Below, one piece after another: positions 11,321-62,558 of a DNA stretch of 64,000 nucleotides. Each line of letters opens with the position of its first letter. Positions within the stretch are counted from its first letter, which is position 1. The position numbers and the translations under genes were made by a program. The DNA is from Methanococcus vannielii SB (GTDB taxonomy: Archaea > AGJL01 > Methanococci > Methanococcales > Methanococcaceae). The notes under the pieces were generated by a model, which worked only from the letters and a program-made list of their open reading frames with translations, searched no databases and was not told the origin of the DNA. The DNA is taken from NCBI RefSeq assembly GCF_000017165.1, contig NC_009634.1:820249-884248 (forward strand). The letters are read 5' to 3'.

Positions 11321-12103
11321 ATGATTATTATCTTAACTGGACTTCCATCTGTTGGAAAATCCACCTTTTCAAAAACCATTTCAAAAAAAATGTCTGAAAA
11401 AAATATGGATAATATAATTCTTGGAACCGACTTATTAAGAGAAAGTTTTCCAATTTGGAAAGAGTCTTATGAAAAATATATACGTGATTCAAATACGTAT
11501 TTAATAAAAAAAGCACTTGAAAATAAATTCAGCGTTATTGTAGATGATACAAACTACTACAATTCAAAAAGAAGAGATTTGATAAATATCGCTAAATCTT
11601 ACGATACAGTATATATCACAATATACCTAAAAGCCCCTTTAAATATTCTATTAACTAGAAATGTTCAAAGAGGGCAGAAAATACCAAATGAAGTAATAAA
11701 AGATATGTACGAAAAGTTTGATACTCCTGGAAGCAAGTATTCATGGGATTTACCCGATATTGAAATAGATACAATGAAAAAAATAAATTATGATGAAATT
11801 TTAAATGAAATTTTAAAGATAAGTAAATTTAAAAATTTAAAAGCAATAAAAAAGTTAGAAAATCCAAAAATGGACTTTTTAGAAAACGACTTGCAAAAAA
11901 TCGATAGTATGTCAAGACAAATTGTTGGAAACTTAATAAAAACCGGAAAAATCGATAATAAGGAGATTAAGAAAGTTTCTAATATTAGAAAATCTTTTTT
12001 AAAAGAATTTAAAAGTATTGAGCATGAAAAAATTAATTTTAAAAAAATAGAAGAAGAATTTTTAATATATTTAAATGAAAATTTAAAAAAAGATTTTATT
12101 TAG
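11321..12103 (+). CDS. pstK: L-seryl-tRNA(Sec) kinase
   Basis: PSTK phosphorylates Ser-tRNA(Sec) to O-phosphoseryl-tRNA(Sec), the intermediate that SepSecS converts to selenocysteyl-tRNA. The P-loop GLPSVGKST is at residues 6-14, and downstream are the family's DDTNYY segment near 75 and the RNVQRG segment near 107. The C-terminal helical part, about 170-260, is the Lys-rich tRNA-binding region. It has 260 residues, the normal size. ATG 11321 has AAAGGTG. The gene overlaps the convergent dadD by 8 bases. Its presence shows that the organism makes selenocysteine. Confidence 0.9.
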   Translation: MIIILTGLPSVGKSTFSKTISKKMSEKNMDNIILGTDLLRESFPIWKESYEKYIRDSNTYLIKKALENKFSVIVDDTNYYNSKRRDLINIAKSYDTVYITIYLKAPLNILLTRNVQRGQKIPNEVIKDMYEKFDTPGSKYSWDLPDIEIDTMKKINYDEILNEILKISKFKNLKAIKKLENPKMDFLENDLQKIDSMSRQIVGNLIKTGKIDNKEIKKVSNIRKSFLKEFKSIEHEKINFKKIEEEFLIYLNENLKKDFI

Positions 12104-56400: not shown

Positions 56401-57597
56401 TTAGTATATTCCTAAAAAATAAAAAATTGTCGGAAAAATTAAAACTGACATCATATTTGACATATTTACTTGTTTTTTAATACATATAATTCCAATGGAT
56501 ATTGATACTATATAGATTACAGCATGATATGTAAAATAATTGTTAAATGTCAATAAAAATATCAAAAAAGTGCAGAATATAATCAAATATTTTGAGATAT
56601 CACCATAGTTATATCGATTTATATTTTTCAGTACATATTTTGAAGCAGTTGATAAAAAAAGTAGCGATAAGCCAGATGCAAGAAAAATACTCCCAAATAT
56701 ATCAAAAGCAGTATACTCAAGATTTAAATTTTTTATTGTTTCTGCAATTCCACTTCTTCCAGTTCCGATTAAAACAAGTGCAAGTATCGAAAATAATTCA
56801 TTTGAAAGTGTTATTGCACCTTGTGAAACAATGAAATTTTCAATGTTTTCTTCTTTTATTAGCTTGCTTAAAAAGTAGTTTATTTGGGCTCCGCCAGTTG
56901 CAGGTATAAATATTCTTAAAAATCCGCCAATTGTTCCAAAAACTACTGATTTTAAATAAGAACCATTTAACTTTGGAAAACTCATGTACTGATATCCTAA
57001 TTTTTTTCTTCCAAGATTTGTAATTAAAAATGGAATTCCAAACATTCCTGTAAATAGTACTGCCATTGTGTTATTATAAGAAGGATTTATATAAAATACG
57101 GATATTCCAAGGGTTCCTGAAAATAAAATTACTAAAAATGTCCAGAATTTATTTTTTGAGAAGATTATTGATGTAAAAATTAAAATTATAAGGATATATG
57201 GTAAAAATGGCTTTAAAATACCATATATTGAATTTAAATCCAAATTTAACGTAAAAATTATTAAAAATAAAATTGATGAAAAAATAATTCCTAAAAATCC
57301 CCCCATTCCTGCTAAAATTACGGCTTCATAACCTTTTCCATCTTTTGTTAATTTATGCATTGGAATTGATGAAACTGCCGATTCTGAGTCGGGAACTCCG
57401 ATAAATGCAGAAGGAATATAGTTCAAAAAGTAATGAGATATAACAAGCCCCATTAAAAATCCAAAATAGTTTGTTTGTCCGAAATAAGGTAGTAAAATCG
57501 TTGAAAAGGGAATTAATAAATTTGGATGAATTCCAGGAATTAATCCAGTAAATGAGCCAGTAATCGCACCAAAAGCTACAAAAAACAAATTTACCAT
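56401..57597 (-). CDS. Tripartite tricarboxylate transporter TctA-like permease
   Basis: This membrane protein of 398 residues has about ten hydrophobic segments. GLIPGIHPNLLIPFSTILLP near residue 17 and FIGVPDSESAVSSIPMHKLTKDG near 64 match the TctA/DUF112 family, and PATGGAQINYFLSKL near 226 gives the second inverted repeat block. The archaeal members are shorter than bacterial TctA (about 500) and usually lack TctB and TctC, as here. The substrate is unknown. It starts one base after the stop of the upstream OB-fold gene, so the two are cotranscribed. Confidence 0.8.
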   Translation of the reverse strand: MVNLFFVAFGAITGSFTGLIPGIHPNLLIPFSTILLPYFGQTNYFGFLMGLVISHYFLNYIPSAFIGVPDSESAVSSIPMHKLTKDGKGYEAVILAGMGGFLGIIFSSILFLIIFTLNLDLNSIYGILKPFLPYILIILIFTSIIFSKNKFWTFLVILFSGTLGISVFYINPSYNNTMAVLFTGMFGIPFLITNLGRKKLGYQYMSFPKLNGSYLKSVVFGTIGGFLRIFIPATGGAQINYFLSKLIKEENIENFIVSQGAITLSNELFSILALVLIGTGRSGIAETIKNLNLEYTAFDIFGSIFLASGLSLLFLSTASKYVLKNINRYNYGDISKYLIIFCTFLIFLLTFNNYFTYHAVIYIVSISIGIICIKKQVNMSNMMSVLIFPTIFYFLGIY

Positions 57598-58200
57598 TTA
57601 ATCCCTTTTTTCACAGTAGCTGCATTTTTTGTACCCTAAATTTAAAGCATCTTCTTCATTAATAAAATACACTTTTTCATTTATTTTTAAGCCATAAGAA
57701 CAGCTAGCATGCGTATGATACGACTTACTGCTTTTAGATGCATAGTATTTTGTAGGCACTTTTGAAAAGAGTATATCTTTTTCAAAATTTAATTTTTCAA
57801 CGATTTCAAAATTAGATATGTCTTTTAATGTTATACCATACAATCCATTGTAGACGTTAATTTTTCCGGTAACTCTTACAATATCTCCTTCTTTTATTCG
57901 CGGGTCAGTTTTTAAAGTATATTCTAAAAATTCTTTTGAAATTTCTGTTGAAATATATAATCTAAGATCAGAAGCTGTTTCATCCATTAACCTAACTGAT
58001 TTTATGCCGATTACTTCACGATATTCATTATAGTTTACATCCATTCTTTGAATTTTAGAGGTTATTTTAACAAAATCCCCATCTTTTAAGTGAGATATTG
58101 GCTTTTCAGAGGGAGTAAGCTCGTATGTAGTTAAAAATAAACTTCCTAAAACCACAAAAACTACACTAAAAAATATTATCTTTTTTTCGGTCAAAATCAT
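57598..58200 (-). CDS. Membrane-anchored OB-fold protein with a His/Cys C-terminal motif
   Basis: This 200-residue protein has one N-terminal membrane helix (KIIFFSVVFVVLGSLFLTTY), then an OB-fold-like domain (DGDFVKITSKIQRMDVN to DPRIKEGDIVRVTGKINVYNGLYGI). The C terminus has YHTHASCSYGLKI and YKKCSYCEK, an H-x3-C-xn-C-x2-C pattern like the small metal-binding module found at the ends of secreted nucleases and Ada-like proteins. ATG 58200 is chosen; 58224 also is possible but lies close to the predicted TATA box. The protein probably faces outward. Function is unknown. Confidence 0.65.
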   Translation of the reverse strand: MILTEKKIIFFSVVFVVLGSLFLTTYELTPSEKPISHLKDGDFVKITSKIQRMDVNYNEYREVIGIKSVRLMDETASDLRLYISTEISKEFLEYTLKTDPRIKEGDIVRVTGKINVYNGLYGITLKDISNFEIVEKLNFEKDILFSKVPTKYYASKSSKSYHTHASCSYGLKINEKVYFINEEDALNLGYKKCSYCEKRD

Positions 58201-58259
58201 AATTATCAGTTTGAATATAAACATACAATTTTATATAGTTATGTTATAGTGTAAAAAAC

Positions 58260-58310
58260 ATTAGATTATCTAATAAAAAAATAGTTATAAATCTATCTAA
58301 TAAATAGATA
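58260..58310. promoter_or_regulatory. Two dyads sharing the half-site TATCTAA before the yedE operon
   Basis: ATTAGAT-T-ATCTAAT at 58260-58274 is a 15-base dyad. TATCTA-N5-TAGATA at 58294-58310 is a second. The 11-base word TATCTAATAAA occurs in both, at 58267-58277 and 58294-58304, 27 bases apart. They lie next to a TATA box (about 58309-58316) between two divergent genes, a layout typical of cooperative operator sites. Confidence 0.5.
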
Positions 58311-58404
58311 TATATACATTCTTATTCAAAATAACCTTGTATTTGCTACATACCTATTAATATACTTAATATATAAAACCATTATTAAAAATATAGGTGA
58401 TAGC

Positions 58405-58860
58405 GTGAAAATTTCACCGTTAAAAACTGGCCTCATAGGAGGGTTTTCAGCAATATTGTTAGAAGTCATGTTTAAGGTAAGTCCTCCTCCAGCATATGGG
58501 TTATGTGTTGCATGCCACACTAGAGACCTTATGAACTGGATTGTAAATAATTTACTAGGAACCAATCTTGGTATGGCGCCTGTATCAAAATTCTTACCTG
58601 TGTTAACTGTTATCGGGTTATTAATCGGTGCATTAGCCGGTGCAATTATTCATAAAGATTTCAAAATTAGAAGAACCCACAATTTAGTTGTTGGATTTAT
58701 ACTTGGAGTACTTGTGTTAAACTTCGCACTTTTGATGGGCGGATGCCCTATCAGAATGGCTTTAAGGGCAGGTTATGGGGATTTATTCGGACTAATTGGG
58801 TTAGTAGGGATAGCTATTGGAGCTGTTGTAGGTTCTGAAGTATATTTGAAAAAAGCATAA
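58405..58860 (+). CDS. YeeE/YedE family membrane protein, first half
   Basis: This 151-residue membrane protein has four or five helices. GLCVACHTRDLMNW near residue 32 and MGGCPIRMALRAGYGDL near 112 carry the conserved cysteines of the YeeE/YedE (DUF395) family, whose bacterial members import thiosulfate through cysteine contacts. It is about half the size of fused bacterial YeeE/YedE, and the partner gene follows after 18 bases. Start is GTG 58405 with GGTGAT. In some bacteria YedE-type proteins accompany selenium genes. Confidence 0.83.
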   Translation: MKISPLKTGLIGGFSAILLEVMFKVSPPPAYGLCVACHTRDLMNWIVNNLLGTNLGMAPVSKFLPVLTVIGLLIGALAGAIIHKDFKIRRTHNLVVGFILGVLVLNFALLMGGCPIRMALRAGYGDLFGLIGLVGIAIGAVVGSEVYLKKA

Positions 58861-58878
58861 TTTATAAAGGGTGATAAT

Positions 58879-59358
58879 ATGGATATTTATCAATACTTGC
58901 CTGCAATTGGCACTTTAGTATTTGGTACCCTTTTGGGATATCTTGGACAAAGATCCGCTCTTTGTTTCTGTGGAGGACTTAGGGACTTTTCTTTAATGAA
59001 AGACACGTGGCTACTCAAAGGTTTATTTGGATTTATTGGTGGAGCATTAATAGGTTCAATCTTATTCCACATTGTAGGGCTTTTACCCCTATTTCCTTGG
59101 ATACTTACAAAAGGAGTTACTGCAATTCCAGGGGGGGCCGCAGGTGGATTAGGTTTTATGCCAAACCTCGTTGCAGCACTTATCGGGGGTTTTGGAGTAG
59201 GTTTCCTGTCAATAATTCAGGGCGGTTGTCCATTTAGAAACTTTATAATGGCAGGAGAAGGGAACCAAACTGCAATCATGTATATAATTGGTTTAGCAGT
59301 TGGTGCAGTAATCTACCACCAGTGGGCACTTTCATTCATACAGTCAATACTTGCATAA
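58879..59358 (+). CDS. YeeE/YedE family membrane protein, second half
   Basis: This 159-residue membrane protein is the second half-size YeeE/YedE unit. RSALCFCGGLRDFSL near residue 25 and IQGGCPFRNFIMAGEGN near 115 are the cysteine blocks. Four or five helices. It should pair with the preceding product to form a full channel-like transporter. GGGTGAT precedes ATG 58879. The gap to the DUF3343 gene is 84 bases. Confidence 0.83.
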   Translation: MDIYQYLPAIGTLVFGTLLGYLGQRSALCFCGGLRDFSLMKDTWLLKGLFGFIGGALIGSILFHIVGLLPLFPWILTKGVTAIPGGAAGGLGFMPNLVAALIGGFGVGFLSIIQGGCPFRNFIMAGEGNQTAIMYIIGLAVGAVIYHQWALSFIQSILA

Positions 59359-59442
59359 TTACTAAATACTAAGTATTATATTATTTATTATACCATTTGA
59401 TATACTATTTTTTTATCAGCACTTTTTTACTTTGGTGAAAAT

Positions 59443-59997
59443 ATGTCCTCATTTTTTAATAAGTTAAAGTCGGTTTTGGAACCTAAAAAAGAATTTAAAG
59501 TAGGAAAAGGATTAATAATATTTAAAAGCGTAAGGGATGCAATGAAGGCTGAAAAAATTTTAAAAAACTATTCTGCAAAAGTAGTTGCTCCTCCGCATGA
59601 AATACGGGAAGGTTGTGACCTTGCAGTGGAATACGAAGTTTTAGAAGAAACAGGAATAAAAAGGGAACTTAAAAAAAATAAATTAGTTCCATTAAAATTT
59701 ATTTCACTTGATGGGCAGTTAATGGAACCTTTAGATATCGTTAAAGTAAAAGAAATCCAAGGATTTACAATGGTAAGATCTGGAAATATGAAAATAACAA
59801 TAGATGGTACCGGAAAGATAGTAAACATTTCTGGAGGGGGCTGTCCTGATGTTCCTTATCTTAATTTACAGTTGATTGGTAGAAACATTTTAGAAATTAA
59901 TGAAAATGAAACTCCAAAAGCTTTAGGGTACACTTTATGTGCCTATACATTAAATAAAGCATTTGAAGAGGCTAAAAAAATATTTAGCGGTGAATAA
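59443..59997 (+). CDS. DUF3343-containing protein
   Basis: This cytosolic protein of 184 residues has an N-terminal DUF3343-like part: LIIFKSVRDAMKAEKILKNYSAKVVAPPHEIREGCDLAVEYE over about residues 25-67, with one cysteine. In bacteria DUF3343 proteins occur beside YedE/YedF and selenium genes. The remaining 115 residues have TMVRSGNMKITIDGTGKIVN and a GGGCPDVPYL motif whose cysteine resembles the GGCP motifs of the two membrane proteins. This suggests sulfur or selenium handover, an inference from motif and operon. GGTGAA precedes ATG 59443. Confidence 0.7.
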   Translation: MSSFFNKLKSVLEPKKEFKVGKGLIIFKSVRDAMKAEKILKNYSAKVVAPPHEIREGCDLAVEYEVLEETGIKRELKKNKLVPLKFISLDGQLMEPLDIVKVKEIQGFTMVRSGNMKITIDGTGKIVNISGGGCPDVPYLNLQLIGRNILEINENETPKALGYTLCAYTLNKAFEEAKKIFSGE

Positions 59998-59998
59998 T

Positions 59999-60820
59999 AT
60001 GATGGTTGCAGGAGCAATGCCCATAAAAGGTATGGAACTTGTTAAAGGCCAAGTACATATTGAAAAAAATAAGATATTTGTTAAAAATAAAGAATTTCCA
60101 ATTACAATGGGCAGTGGAGCCCTCGTTGGGGCAGCATTTAAAACATTGGAATATTTTGGAATGGAAAAAGAGCTAATTTTTTTAACTGCGGGAGATGTGG
60201 GGGAAGGTGAGGGTAGTTTAAAAATTTATCGGGATTTAAATGAAATTACGGAAGAAATAACAATTATTCATTATATAAAACCAAAAATTTCAGAAATTTT
60301 AAACGTAGATTTTTCCAAAACCGTTATCGGCGATGCAGGAGGGATGTATGCTGGAAAGGCTGCAGGTATTGGGGATAAATTTCGAATGTTTTTTCCAGAT
60401 GTAGGCGAACTTGCATTTTTAGCAGATGATAAGTCATCACATCCTGCGTACGTTAGAGGATTTATATCTAAAATAGATGATTTAGACGTTCCAAAACTAA
60501 TTGAAATGGCGTATTTTCAAAAAATGCCCGACAATATGGTTGTAAAAGGGGAAAAAGACTATATTGTACAGTGCGGAAAAATCATTGACCATGTGGCAAA
60601 TCCAAAGTTTGAAGCAATGGAATGCATCGGGGGAACTGGAGATACGCTAACAGGAATTACTACGTCATTAATTGCATGTGGATTTAAAATAGAGGAAGCA
60701 TCGATATTGGGGTGTAAATTAAATCGTAAATTGGGCGAAATTGTAAATCCAAAACCCGATACAAAGATATACGAAATTATAAAAAAAATTCCTGAAGCCC
60801 TAAAAGAATTTAAACTCTAA
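59999..60820 (+). CDS. Ribokinase/NAD(P)HX dehydratase-fold protein
   Basis: This 273-residue protein resembles the YjeF C-terminal (NAD(P)HX dehydratase) and related ribokinase-fold enzymes. MGSGALVGAAFKTLEYFG near residue 37, VIGDAGGMYAGKAAG near 112 and the nucleotide-binding IGGTGDTLTGITTSLIACG near 220, with its GTGD anion-hole motif, support this. It may phosphorylate a small molecule. The start ATG 59999 lies one base after the DUF3343 stop (TAATATGATG), with CGGTGA, so the two are translationally coupled. The substrate is unknown. Confidence 0.68.
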   Translation: MMVAGAMPIKGMELVKGQVHIEKNKIFVKNKEFPITMGSGALVGAAFKTLEYFGMEKELIFLTAGDVGEGEGSLKIYRDLNEITEEITIIHYIKPKISEILNVDFSKTVIGDAGGMYAGKAAGIGDKFRMFFPDVGELAFLADDKSSHPAYVRGFISKIDDLDVPKLIEMAYFQKMPDNMVVKGEKDYIVQCGKIIDHVANPKFEAMECIGGTGDTLTGITTSLIACGFKIEEASILGCKLNRKLGEIVNPKPDTKIYEIIKKIPEALKEFKL

Positions 60821-60844: not shown

Positions 60845-61162
60845 TTACATATATTTTTCTGCCATATCGCCAATTACGGGTAATTTATACATTTCCCCTT
60901 TGTAAGCCTTAAACATACAGAAAAACCAGATTATTAAGCTTGCAGGCATTAATAGTAAACCGAGTAACCATCCTATAATTGGAATAAATGCAAGAACAAT
61001 ACTTAAAACAAATATTGCTGCTGAAACTATTATCGACTGCATTGCATGAAATTTAACAAAAGAACTCTCTTTTTCGATAACTAACAAGATACCGCCTGAA
61101 ACAAATCCTAAAAGGTATGCTAAAACTGCTTCGTGATTTTCTTCAAGACCTAACGATGTCAT
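60845..61162 (-). CDS. DUF4870-type small membrane protein
   Basis: This 105-residue protein has three hydrophobic segments. ENHEAVLAYLLGFVSGGILLV, ESSFVKFHAMQSIIVSA and YKLPVIGDMAEKYM match the DUF4870 family. The function is unknown. AGGGGA precedes ATG 61162. A frameshifted second copy lies upstream at 61321-61636. The two share the same ends and the same FVKFHAMQSII core. Confidence 0.82.
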   Translation of the reverse strand: MTSLGLEENHEAVLAYLLGFVSGGILLVIEKESSFVKFHAMQSIIVSAAIFVLSIVLAFIPIIGWLLGLLLMPASLIIWFFCMFKAYKGEMYKLPVIGDMAEKYM

Positions 61163-61320: not shown

Positions 61321-61636
61321 TTACAGGTATTTTTCAGCAATGTCGCCAATAATTGGGAATTTATATTTTTCACCTTGGTATGATTTTATTATTCCAACTA
61401 TCCATAATGCCAATGAAATTAGACTTAATAACATTCCCAAAATTCCCCCAATATAAGGAATATATCCAAAAACTAGACTTAACGCAAAAATTAAACCAAA
61501 GCATATAATGGATTGCATTGCATGAAATTTAACAAATTTACTCTGTTTCCAGTAGTAAAACTATAATTCCAGATAGGAATCCTAAAAGGTATGCTAAAAT
61601 TGCTGCGTGATTTTCTTTTAAACCGAATAATGCCAT
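61321..61636 (-). pseudogene. Frameshifted DUF4870 paralog
   Basis: Translation from ATG 61636 (site AAGGGGGAA) gives MALFGLKENHAAILAYLLG to LLLETE and then a stop. The next frame continues FVKFHAMQSIICFGLIFAL to IGDIAEKYL. The intact paralog has GAGAGT at the break where this gene has GAGT (near 61540), so two bases (AG) seem to be lost. The 65-residue frame 61321-61518 is thus a fragment, not a gene. Confidence 0.85.
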
Positions 61637-61826
61637 TATATTCCCCCTTAGCGGTTTATAATTAAAATATGTATTTAAGGGGCATATATAATCAATTAGT
61701 TTGTATTGCATTTAAACATTTTACCAAAAAGTTTAAATATTAAAACACCTTATTTCATTTTGCTTTGAAAGGCATTGGAAATTCAGATAAAATCATTCTA
61801 AGGTTTCCTCGAATAAGTTGCAGTAT

Positions 61827-61967: not shown

Positions 61968-62558
61968 TTAAGGTTTAAATTTAGATAGTTCTGTTCTAAG
62001 CTTTAAATTTTCTGTAAAGCTTATTAAATCCCCGTGAGTTTTTTCCAGTATACTTCTTGAAACGTCTTGTTTTCTTCTTAGTCCGTCTATTAAATTATAA
62101 TAGTCAAATTTCATTGTAAAATCATAAATATTTTCCATGTGGAAAAAATAACACTCTGCATTTTTAAAGTCGTCTTCTTTAATTGATTCGAGTATTTTTC
62201 TCCTAAGTTCCCCAATAACATCACAAAGTCCCAATATATAATTCTCTATTGAAACATTTTTAAAGTTAGAGTAATTTAAAAACCGATTTTCAAAAACTAA
62301 GTGATAATAAACCTTGGCTTCAACGTATTCCTGTTCTGGAGCTTGTAGATATTTGATAAATTCGGGATGATCCAAACATAAATTTGAAATACCTAAAAGT
62401 TTATCTTCAAGTTCAAAAAAACTGACTTGTTCACGTTTCTGAATTTTTCGAATAATTATTGAAGAATCCTTAACAATATCTCTTGAAATTTTTAAAATTT
62501 TTTCCCTTTTTTCGTTCTTTTTTTCAAAATATTCTATCATAAAGCTCATGTTTTCCAT
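61968..62558 (-). CDS. Translin family protein
   Basis: This all-helical protein of 196 residues resembles archaeal translin/TRAX. SSIIIRKIQKREQVSFFE near residue 31 and EYVEAKVYYHLVFENRF near 75 carry acidic residues at the site where TRAX-type nucleases hold metal. GLCDVIGELRRKILESI near 109 is the family's best block, followed by YDFTMKFDYYNLIDGLRRKQDVSRSILEKTHGDL. Eukaryotic translin-TRAX (C3PO) degrades small RNAs. The archaeal role is unsettled. GGTGATTGA precedes ATG 62558. It stands alone on the minus strand. Confidence 0.83.
   Translation of the reverse strand: MENMSFMIEYFEKKNEKREKILKISRDIVKDSSIIIRKIQKREQVSFFELEDKLLGISNLCLDHPEFIKYLQAPEQEYVEAKVYYHLVFENRFLNYSNFKNVSIENYILGLCDVIGELRRKILESIKEDDFKNAECYFFHMENIYDFTMKFDYYNLIDGLRRKQDVSRSILEKTHGDLISFTENLKLRTELSKFKP

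Follow-up and report, generated by a model that had tools for sequence, protein, structure and literature searches.

In Methanococcus vannielii SB, a four-gene block encodes a YedE transporter in two pieces, a long DUF3343 protein and a ribokinase-fold enzyme. What appears to be new is the constancy of this partnership, since YedE, long DUF3343 and a distinct ribokinase-fold enzyme recur together across archaea and bacteria, with two gene fusions in support. We consider the block best explained as a selenium-scavenging import and relay module, a reading to which we give a probability of about 0.58. A role in selenium supply is likely, and the narrower proposal that the block performs import, which we make by analogy with a better-known transporter, stands somewhat above even odds. 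Because the same gene set recurs in unrelated bacteria that are mostly selenium users, the enzyme is also a good candidate for a new step of selenium uptake. A previous sequence-only reading of this DNA had suggested that the four genes could import a sulfur or selenium compound, pass it through cysteines and activate it with ATP, and our analysis supports that interpretation in part.

Organization of the four-gene block

The DNA that we analyzed (the window) comprises bases 820249 to 884248 (64 kb) of the complete 1,720,048-bp genome. All four open reading frames attributed to the block proved real and lie on the forward strand: yedE1 (58405 to 58860), yedE2 (58879 to 59358), the long DUF3343, or Se_S_carrier, gene (59443 to 59997), and the gene for the ribokinase-fold enzyme (59999 to 60820), called the kinase below. 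The reported one-base gap between the last two genes is likewise present, with the TAA stop codon at 59995 to 59997 and an ATG at 59999. Each of the 20 kinase orthologues in our alignment begins at the methionine of this ATG, making the TTG start at 59963 chosen by the ORF finder unlikely. An AT-rich spacer of 84 bases separates yedE2 from the DUF3343 gene, and a single transcript of all four genes is a candidate only. The PSTK gene that had been noted elsewhere in the window was located at about 11324 to 12076.

The two YedE genes encode one split and permuted transporter

Profile searches matched YedE1 to positions 5 to 132 (2.1e-18) and YedE2 to positions 184 to 310 (5.9e-20) of TIGR04112, a family of putative selenium transporters. 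The pair thus represents the N-terminal and C-terminal halves of this family in order and belongs to it over the length of the model; neither half by itself reaches the 200-bit cut-off set for the whole protein, as one would expect when a gene is split. YedE2 reached only 38 of 400 bits and 16 of 645 bits against the TsuA equivalogs. Against PF04143 and StYeeE, the matches came in the opposite order, YedE2 corresponding to the N-terminal half of StYeeE and YedE1 to its C-terminal half. Given that the halves run in order on TIGR04112 but in reverse on PF04143 and StYeeE, these alignments indicate that YedE1 and YedE2 are one transporter, split and circularly permuted with respect to TsuA. The splitting of YedE in archaea is itself already described by Lin et al. 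2015 (PMC5322559), and we also found a split YedE in a Desulfobacterales genome, in the gene order DUF3343-kinase-yedE1-yedE2-tusA.

According to the StYeeE-StYeeD structure paper, thiosulfate encounters first C293, next C91 and then C22 of YeeE, and finally C17 of YeeD (PMC11073785). YedE1 C114 aligns with C293 and YedE2 C29 with C22, and YedE2 C117 aligns with C91 in a weak match that its GGC motif supports, so that all three relay cysteines are retained in the YedE pair. The paired cysteine motifs emphasized by the sequence-only reading largely withstood comparison across 22 Methanococcales, in which YedE1 C34 and C37 (the CxxC of CVACH) and C114 (GGCP) and YedE2 C29 and C117 (GGCP) are invariant; the exception is YedE2 C31, the second cysteine of CFCGG, which occurs only in the genus Methanococcus. 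The N-terminal CxxC of YedE1 is an addition relative to the thiosulfate importer YeeE.

The block is gained and lost as a unit in Methanococcales

A phylum-wide search covered 36 genomes, all Methanococcales, of which 27 are near-complete. Of these, 21 have the complete set of four genes, and the other six have none of them. They co-occur even in several Methanocaldococcus-group genomes where they are dispersed over two or three separate places. SelD was found over the cut-off in 33 of the 36 genomes, including every near-complete one; in these 27 it carries the in-frame TGA expected of a selenoprotein SelD, and PSTK is likewise present. The sequence-only reading had proposed to look for co-occurrence of the block with SelD and PSTK, and both do accompany it, but both are also found in the six near-complete genomes that lack it. 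The presence of SelD or PSTK therefore fails as a cause of the presence of the block in Methanococcales, and neither gene can explain its loss. TusA was equally uninformative as a diagnostic partner, occurring in all 36 Methanococcales, those without the block included. Since six near-complete Methanococcales keep SelD and PSTK without the block, and Nostoc has the block without SelD, we class the block as accessory to the use of selenium and as dispensable for selenocysteine synthesis.

The surroundings of the block vary. It is divergent from genes for an OB-fold protein and a TctA-family membrane protein in Methanococcus and in two further genomes, PSTK is the divergent neighbor of yedE1 in three others, and in the genome G004 the yedE1 piece adjoins SelD. 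Both yedE genes of G004 appear broken or shortened, and a kinase remnant lies near PSTK in the genome G026, which suggests that loss of the block is under way in places. More widely, genes of the block with internal stops or reduced length were seen at five loci of the Methanocaldococcus-group genomes G004 and G002, and these copies suggest decay or sequence errors.

A wider module in bacteria

We scanned 84,980 species genomes for two conserved motifs of the kinase, a search that covers the genomes holding these motifs and may omit some near the genome of the window. This yielded 32 bacterial loci and, within the archaea, Methanococcales only. The bacteria with the module include Coriobacteriia, Clostridia, Desulfobacterales, Omnitrophota and Nostoc. 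A long DUF3343 gene adjoins the kinase in 30 of the 32 loci, while contig ends truncate the remaining two, and YedE is encoded near the kinase in 27 (24 recognized by profile and three by Pfam). The expectation that the same block would be found in other methanogens was thus confirmed and extended to a broader bacterial module. Two fusions tie its parts together. Nostoc sp. FACHB-152 encodes a YedE-DUF3343 protein of 543 residues, and an Omnitrophota genome encodes a kinase-YedE protein of 652 residues. The DUF3343 and kinase trees are in broad agreement, and a plasmid search found yedE, tusA, DUF3343 and kinase genes beside selD in Peptoclostridium acidaminophilum DSM 3953. On a plasmid of Nostoc carneum the YedE-DUF3343 fusion is broken up, its DUF3343 end preceding the kinase and its YedE start lying elsewhere on the plasmid.

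Kinase-bearing bacteria are mostly equipped to use selenium, with SelD over the cut-off in 26 of 31 genomes. Among 300 Coriobacteriia genomes, drawn from the class of a Slackia MAG, SelD occurs in 25 of 26 with the kinase and in 180 of 274 without it (Fisher p 4e-4, kinship ignored). Among the SelD matches listed, an in-frame TGA is present in 24 of 24 from kinase genomes and in 65 of 125 others (p 1e-6, kinship again ignored). Genomes with the kinase but no SelD over the cut-off are two of Nostoc, two of Omnitrophota, one Desulfobacterales MAG and one of Coriobacteriia. In one Omnitrophota genome (G061, contig C14, 138367 to 139299), a SelD-like match lies within an open frame of 5843 residues.

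These patterns bear on a first alternative, namely that the module serves sulfur: it would import thiosulfate or sulfane sulfur, relay it through DUF3343 and activate it with ATP, and selenium users would keep it since selenium starvation raises the demand for sulfur by cysteine isoenzymes. YeeE/TsuA and other YeeE/YedE relatives do transport sulfur (PMC11073785, PMC11582611), the YedE pair keeps the three thiosulfate cysteines, the module occurs without SelD in Nostoc and Omnitrophota, and selenium depletion induces TusA genes as well (PMC11097638). However, the YedE pair scores as TIGR04112 and not as TsuA, the module has PSTK and SelD as neighbors, and SelD is enriched among the genomes that bear it. 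Methanococci, moreover, live on sulfide and should not require a thiosulfate importer, which also counts against a sulfur role. We regard such a role as rather unlikely.

The long DUF3343 protein and the ribokinase-fold enzyme

The DUF3343 protein contains the PF11823 domain at residues 22 to 86 (7.6e-15; 54.6 bits against a gathering score of 25), which places it in that family, and an extra C-terminal domain with an SGGGCPD (GGGCPD-type) motif. The GGCP cysteine that had been singled out is present, but it is one of three, C58, C134 and C166, that are invariant in 23 archaeal proteins and the aligned bacterial relatives. An AF2 model was confident for both domains (mean pLDDT 88), while its pTM of 0.54 makes their arrangement uncertain. 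The N-terminal domain is ferredoxin-like and resembles many small domains in a fold search, and nothing in the PDB matched the protein below an E value of 0.01 or otherwise convincingly. Searches for solved relatives by sequence likewise returned none for the DUF3343 profile or for that of the kinase. In kinase-bearing loci the DUF3343 protein is the long form; a short form of 79 residues follows YedE in Pusillibacter and Enterococcus raffinosus, a small sample, with no kinase alongside.

The kinase matches PF01256 at residues 100 to 253 (9.8e-8). A ribokinase-superfamily fold is predicted for it (AF2 pLDDT 93.7), and this fold together with the GxGD motif places it in that superfamily. The GGTGD form of the motif (amino acids 211 to 215) is invariant across archaea and bacteria, as are DAGGMY, PD-x-x-E, HP and KG. 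The same alignment contains no invariant cysteine, so the kinase itself is probably outside the cysteine relay.

Could the kinase simply be a housekeeping NAD(P)HX dehydratase that travels with the YedE-DUF3343 pair? It matches PF01256 and TIGR00196, it shares the ribokinase fold and GGTGD with the C-terminal YjeF domain of that enzyme, and its best PDB matches by Foldseek, TM0922, EF1790 and YxkO, include NAD(P)HX dehydratases. Public records annotate the family accordingly, as NAD(P)H-hydrate dehydratase or nnrD. Against this, the kinase scores just 33.4 of the 129.85 bits that TIGR00196 requires, its identity to the closest folds is about 16% at TM scores of about 0.55 to 0.6, its N-terminal half has diverged and its gene context is different. 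Many of the same genomes also encode separate proteins of about 500 residues, matched weakly through their C-terminal part, which are probably the genuine bifunctional Nnr. In addition, the kinase has a long DUF3343 partner in every bacterial locus uncut by a contig end, and in one it is fused to YedE. We find a housekeeping role improbable and conclude that the kinase, nearest to NAD(P)HX dehydratase, forms its own family; the public label is probably a wrong transfer of function. A literature search found no paper that mentions the kinase. If the selenium reading holds, a family that public records now file under NAD(P)H-hydrate dehydratase would have to be renamed and assigned another function.

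Selenium depletion and the proposed mechanism

From their synteny in three genomes with one YedE pair each, and from the same divergent TctA gene, we infer that M. maripaludis MMJJ_13000-13010 is orthologous to this locus. The YedE gene MMJJ_13000 rises by 5.28 log2 on selenium depletion (PMC11097638), so that the selenium link made in the sequence-only reading is now supported by the transporter family, the neighboring genes, the co-occurrence with SelD and this published induction. That reading would also expect deletion to affect sulfur or selenium phenotypes, and here it fared less well: a strain lacking MMJJ_13000-13010 could still use every selenium source tested and showed no clear phenotype (PMC11097638). 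Only the yedE pair was deleted, and the main text of that study is silent on DUF3343 and the kinase. With both of these genes intact and other routes available, the deletion may have been uninformative. A later paper credits the study with demonstrating a role in selenium transport (PMC11582611), a wording stronger than that of its source. In Campylobacter jejuni, formate dehydrogenase activity at limiting selenium falls when the YedE-family protein FdhT is lost, and falls further when SelF is lost with it (PMC11237541). FdhT thus supports a selenium-dependent enzyme at low selenium, but it belongs to the related NCBI family NF033796 and the YedE of the block to TIGR04112.

The strong response of the operon to selenium and the lack of a clear transport phenotype after yedE deletion (PMC11097638) raise the possibility that YedE and DUF3343 form a sensor, reporting selenium status outside or inside the cell to a regulator as SoxT1B, a YeeE-like signaling unit, does for sulfur (PMC11582611). 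However, no regulator accompanies the module consistently in the loci that we examined, a signaling role is not one that a ribokinase-fold enzyme readily suggests, and the selenium reporter of the yedE deletion strain remained responsive (PMC11097638). A sensor is thus quite improbable in our view. Export or detoxification of selenium, which Lin et al. also consider for YedE (PMC5322559), gains something from the ArsP-type permease in the same cluster in some Omnitrophota and one Firmicutes genome, and from the fact that the direction of transport is one that we infer. Yet induction follows selenium depletion and not excess (PMC11097638), and FdhT loss reduces selenium-dependent enzyme activity (PMC11237541). 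We consider export very improbable.

We therefore return to selenium import and relay, for which YeeE-YeeD (TsuA-TsuB) offers a good and, by analogy, the favored model (PMC11073785). Both systems share a plan of a membrane protein with three relay cysteines and a small cytoplasmic cysteine protein, sometimes fused; the block differs in that the two halves are separate and in permuted order, an extra CxxC is found, DUF3343 replaces the TusA-like partner and a kinase-fold enzyme is present. YedE1 and YedE2 would assemble into a single YedE channel, set apart from the thiosulfate YeeE by the extra CxxC of YedE1, and a selenium (or selenium/sulfur) species would pass YedE1 C114, YedE2 C117 and YedE2 C29. 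At the inner face the long DUF3343 protein may take it over through its cysteines, in the place of YeeD/TusA; the bacterial loci encode a TusA protein as well. The kinase would bind ATP and act on the carried species or on a co-released small molecule, which it would trap or activate in such a way that selenium arrives at SelD. The direction of transport, the substrate, the order of the relay and the whole chemistry of the enzyme are conditional in this scheme. The specific ATP-activation step, suggested by the fold and the intact GGTGD motif, is doubtful. It is unlikely that the kinase family is an unrecognized selenium-assimilation enzyme using ATP on a DUF3343-held selenium (or sulfur) species upstream of, or in place of, SelD; if it were, YedE, DUF3343 and kinase would form a dedicated ATP-driven route of uptake and activation common to archaea and bacteria.

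Lin et al. 2015 (PMC5322559) already treat this transporter family, with its archaeal split, the idea of DUF3343 as a candidate selenium carrier and the association with SelD; the passages searched contain neither the kinase nor its long DUF3343 partner, and neither the fusions nor a split YedE of Desulfobacterales. According to a 2026 review, a specific high-affinity system for selenium transport has yet to be identified in prokaryotes (PMC13188914), and by the account of the M. maripaludis study no such system is known in any organism (PMC11097638). The conserved combination of transporter, carrier and enzyme, present in methanococci amenable to genetics and in cultured bacteria, provides a concrete, testable system.

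Genes next to the block

The divergent genes upstream of the block, on the reverse strand, encode the OB-fold protein (57598 to 58224; PF01336 1.4e-5, just under the cut-off) and the TctA-family membrane protein (56401 to 57597; PF01970 1.6e-36), both also recognized by synteny. They are separated from yedE1 by a shared intergenic region (58225 to 58404), in which alignment revealed no regulatory motif beyond AT-rich, promoter-like conservation. The two genes may belong to the same system as the block, given that the likely M. maripaludis orthologue of the TctA gene, MMJJ_13030, which lies near yedE, is also induced by selenium depletion (+2.63 log2; PMC11097638, Table 1). Downstream, two short reverse-strand ORFs at 61321 to 61711 jointly resemble one DUF4870 protein (compare 60845 to 61162) and may be a broken second copy. 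A translin-family protein is encoded on the reverse strand at 61968 to 62558, and its gene stays near the block in genomes G015 to G020 and G033 to G035.
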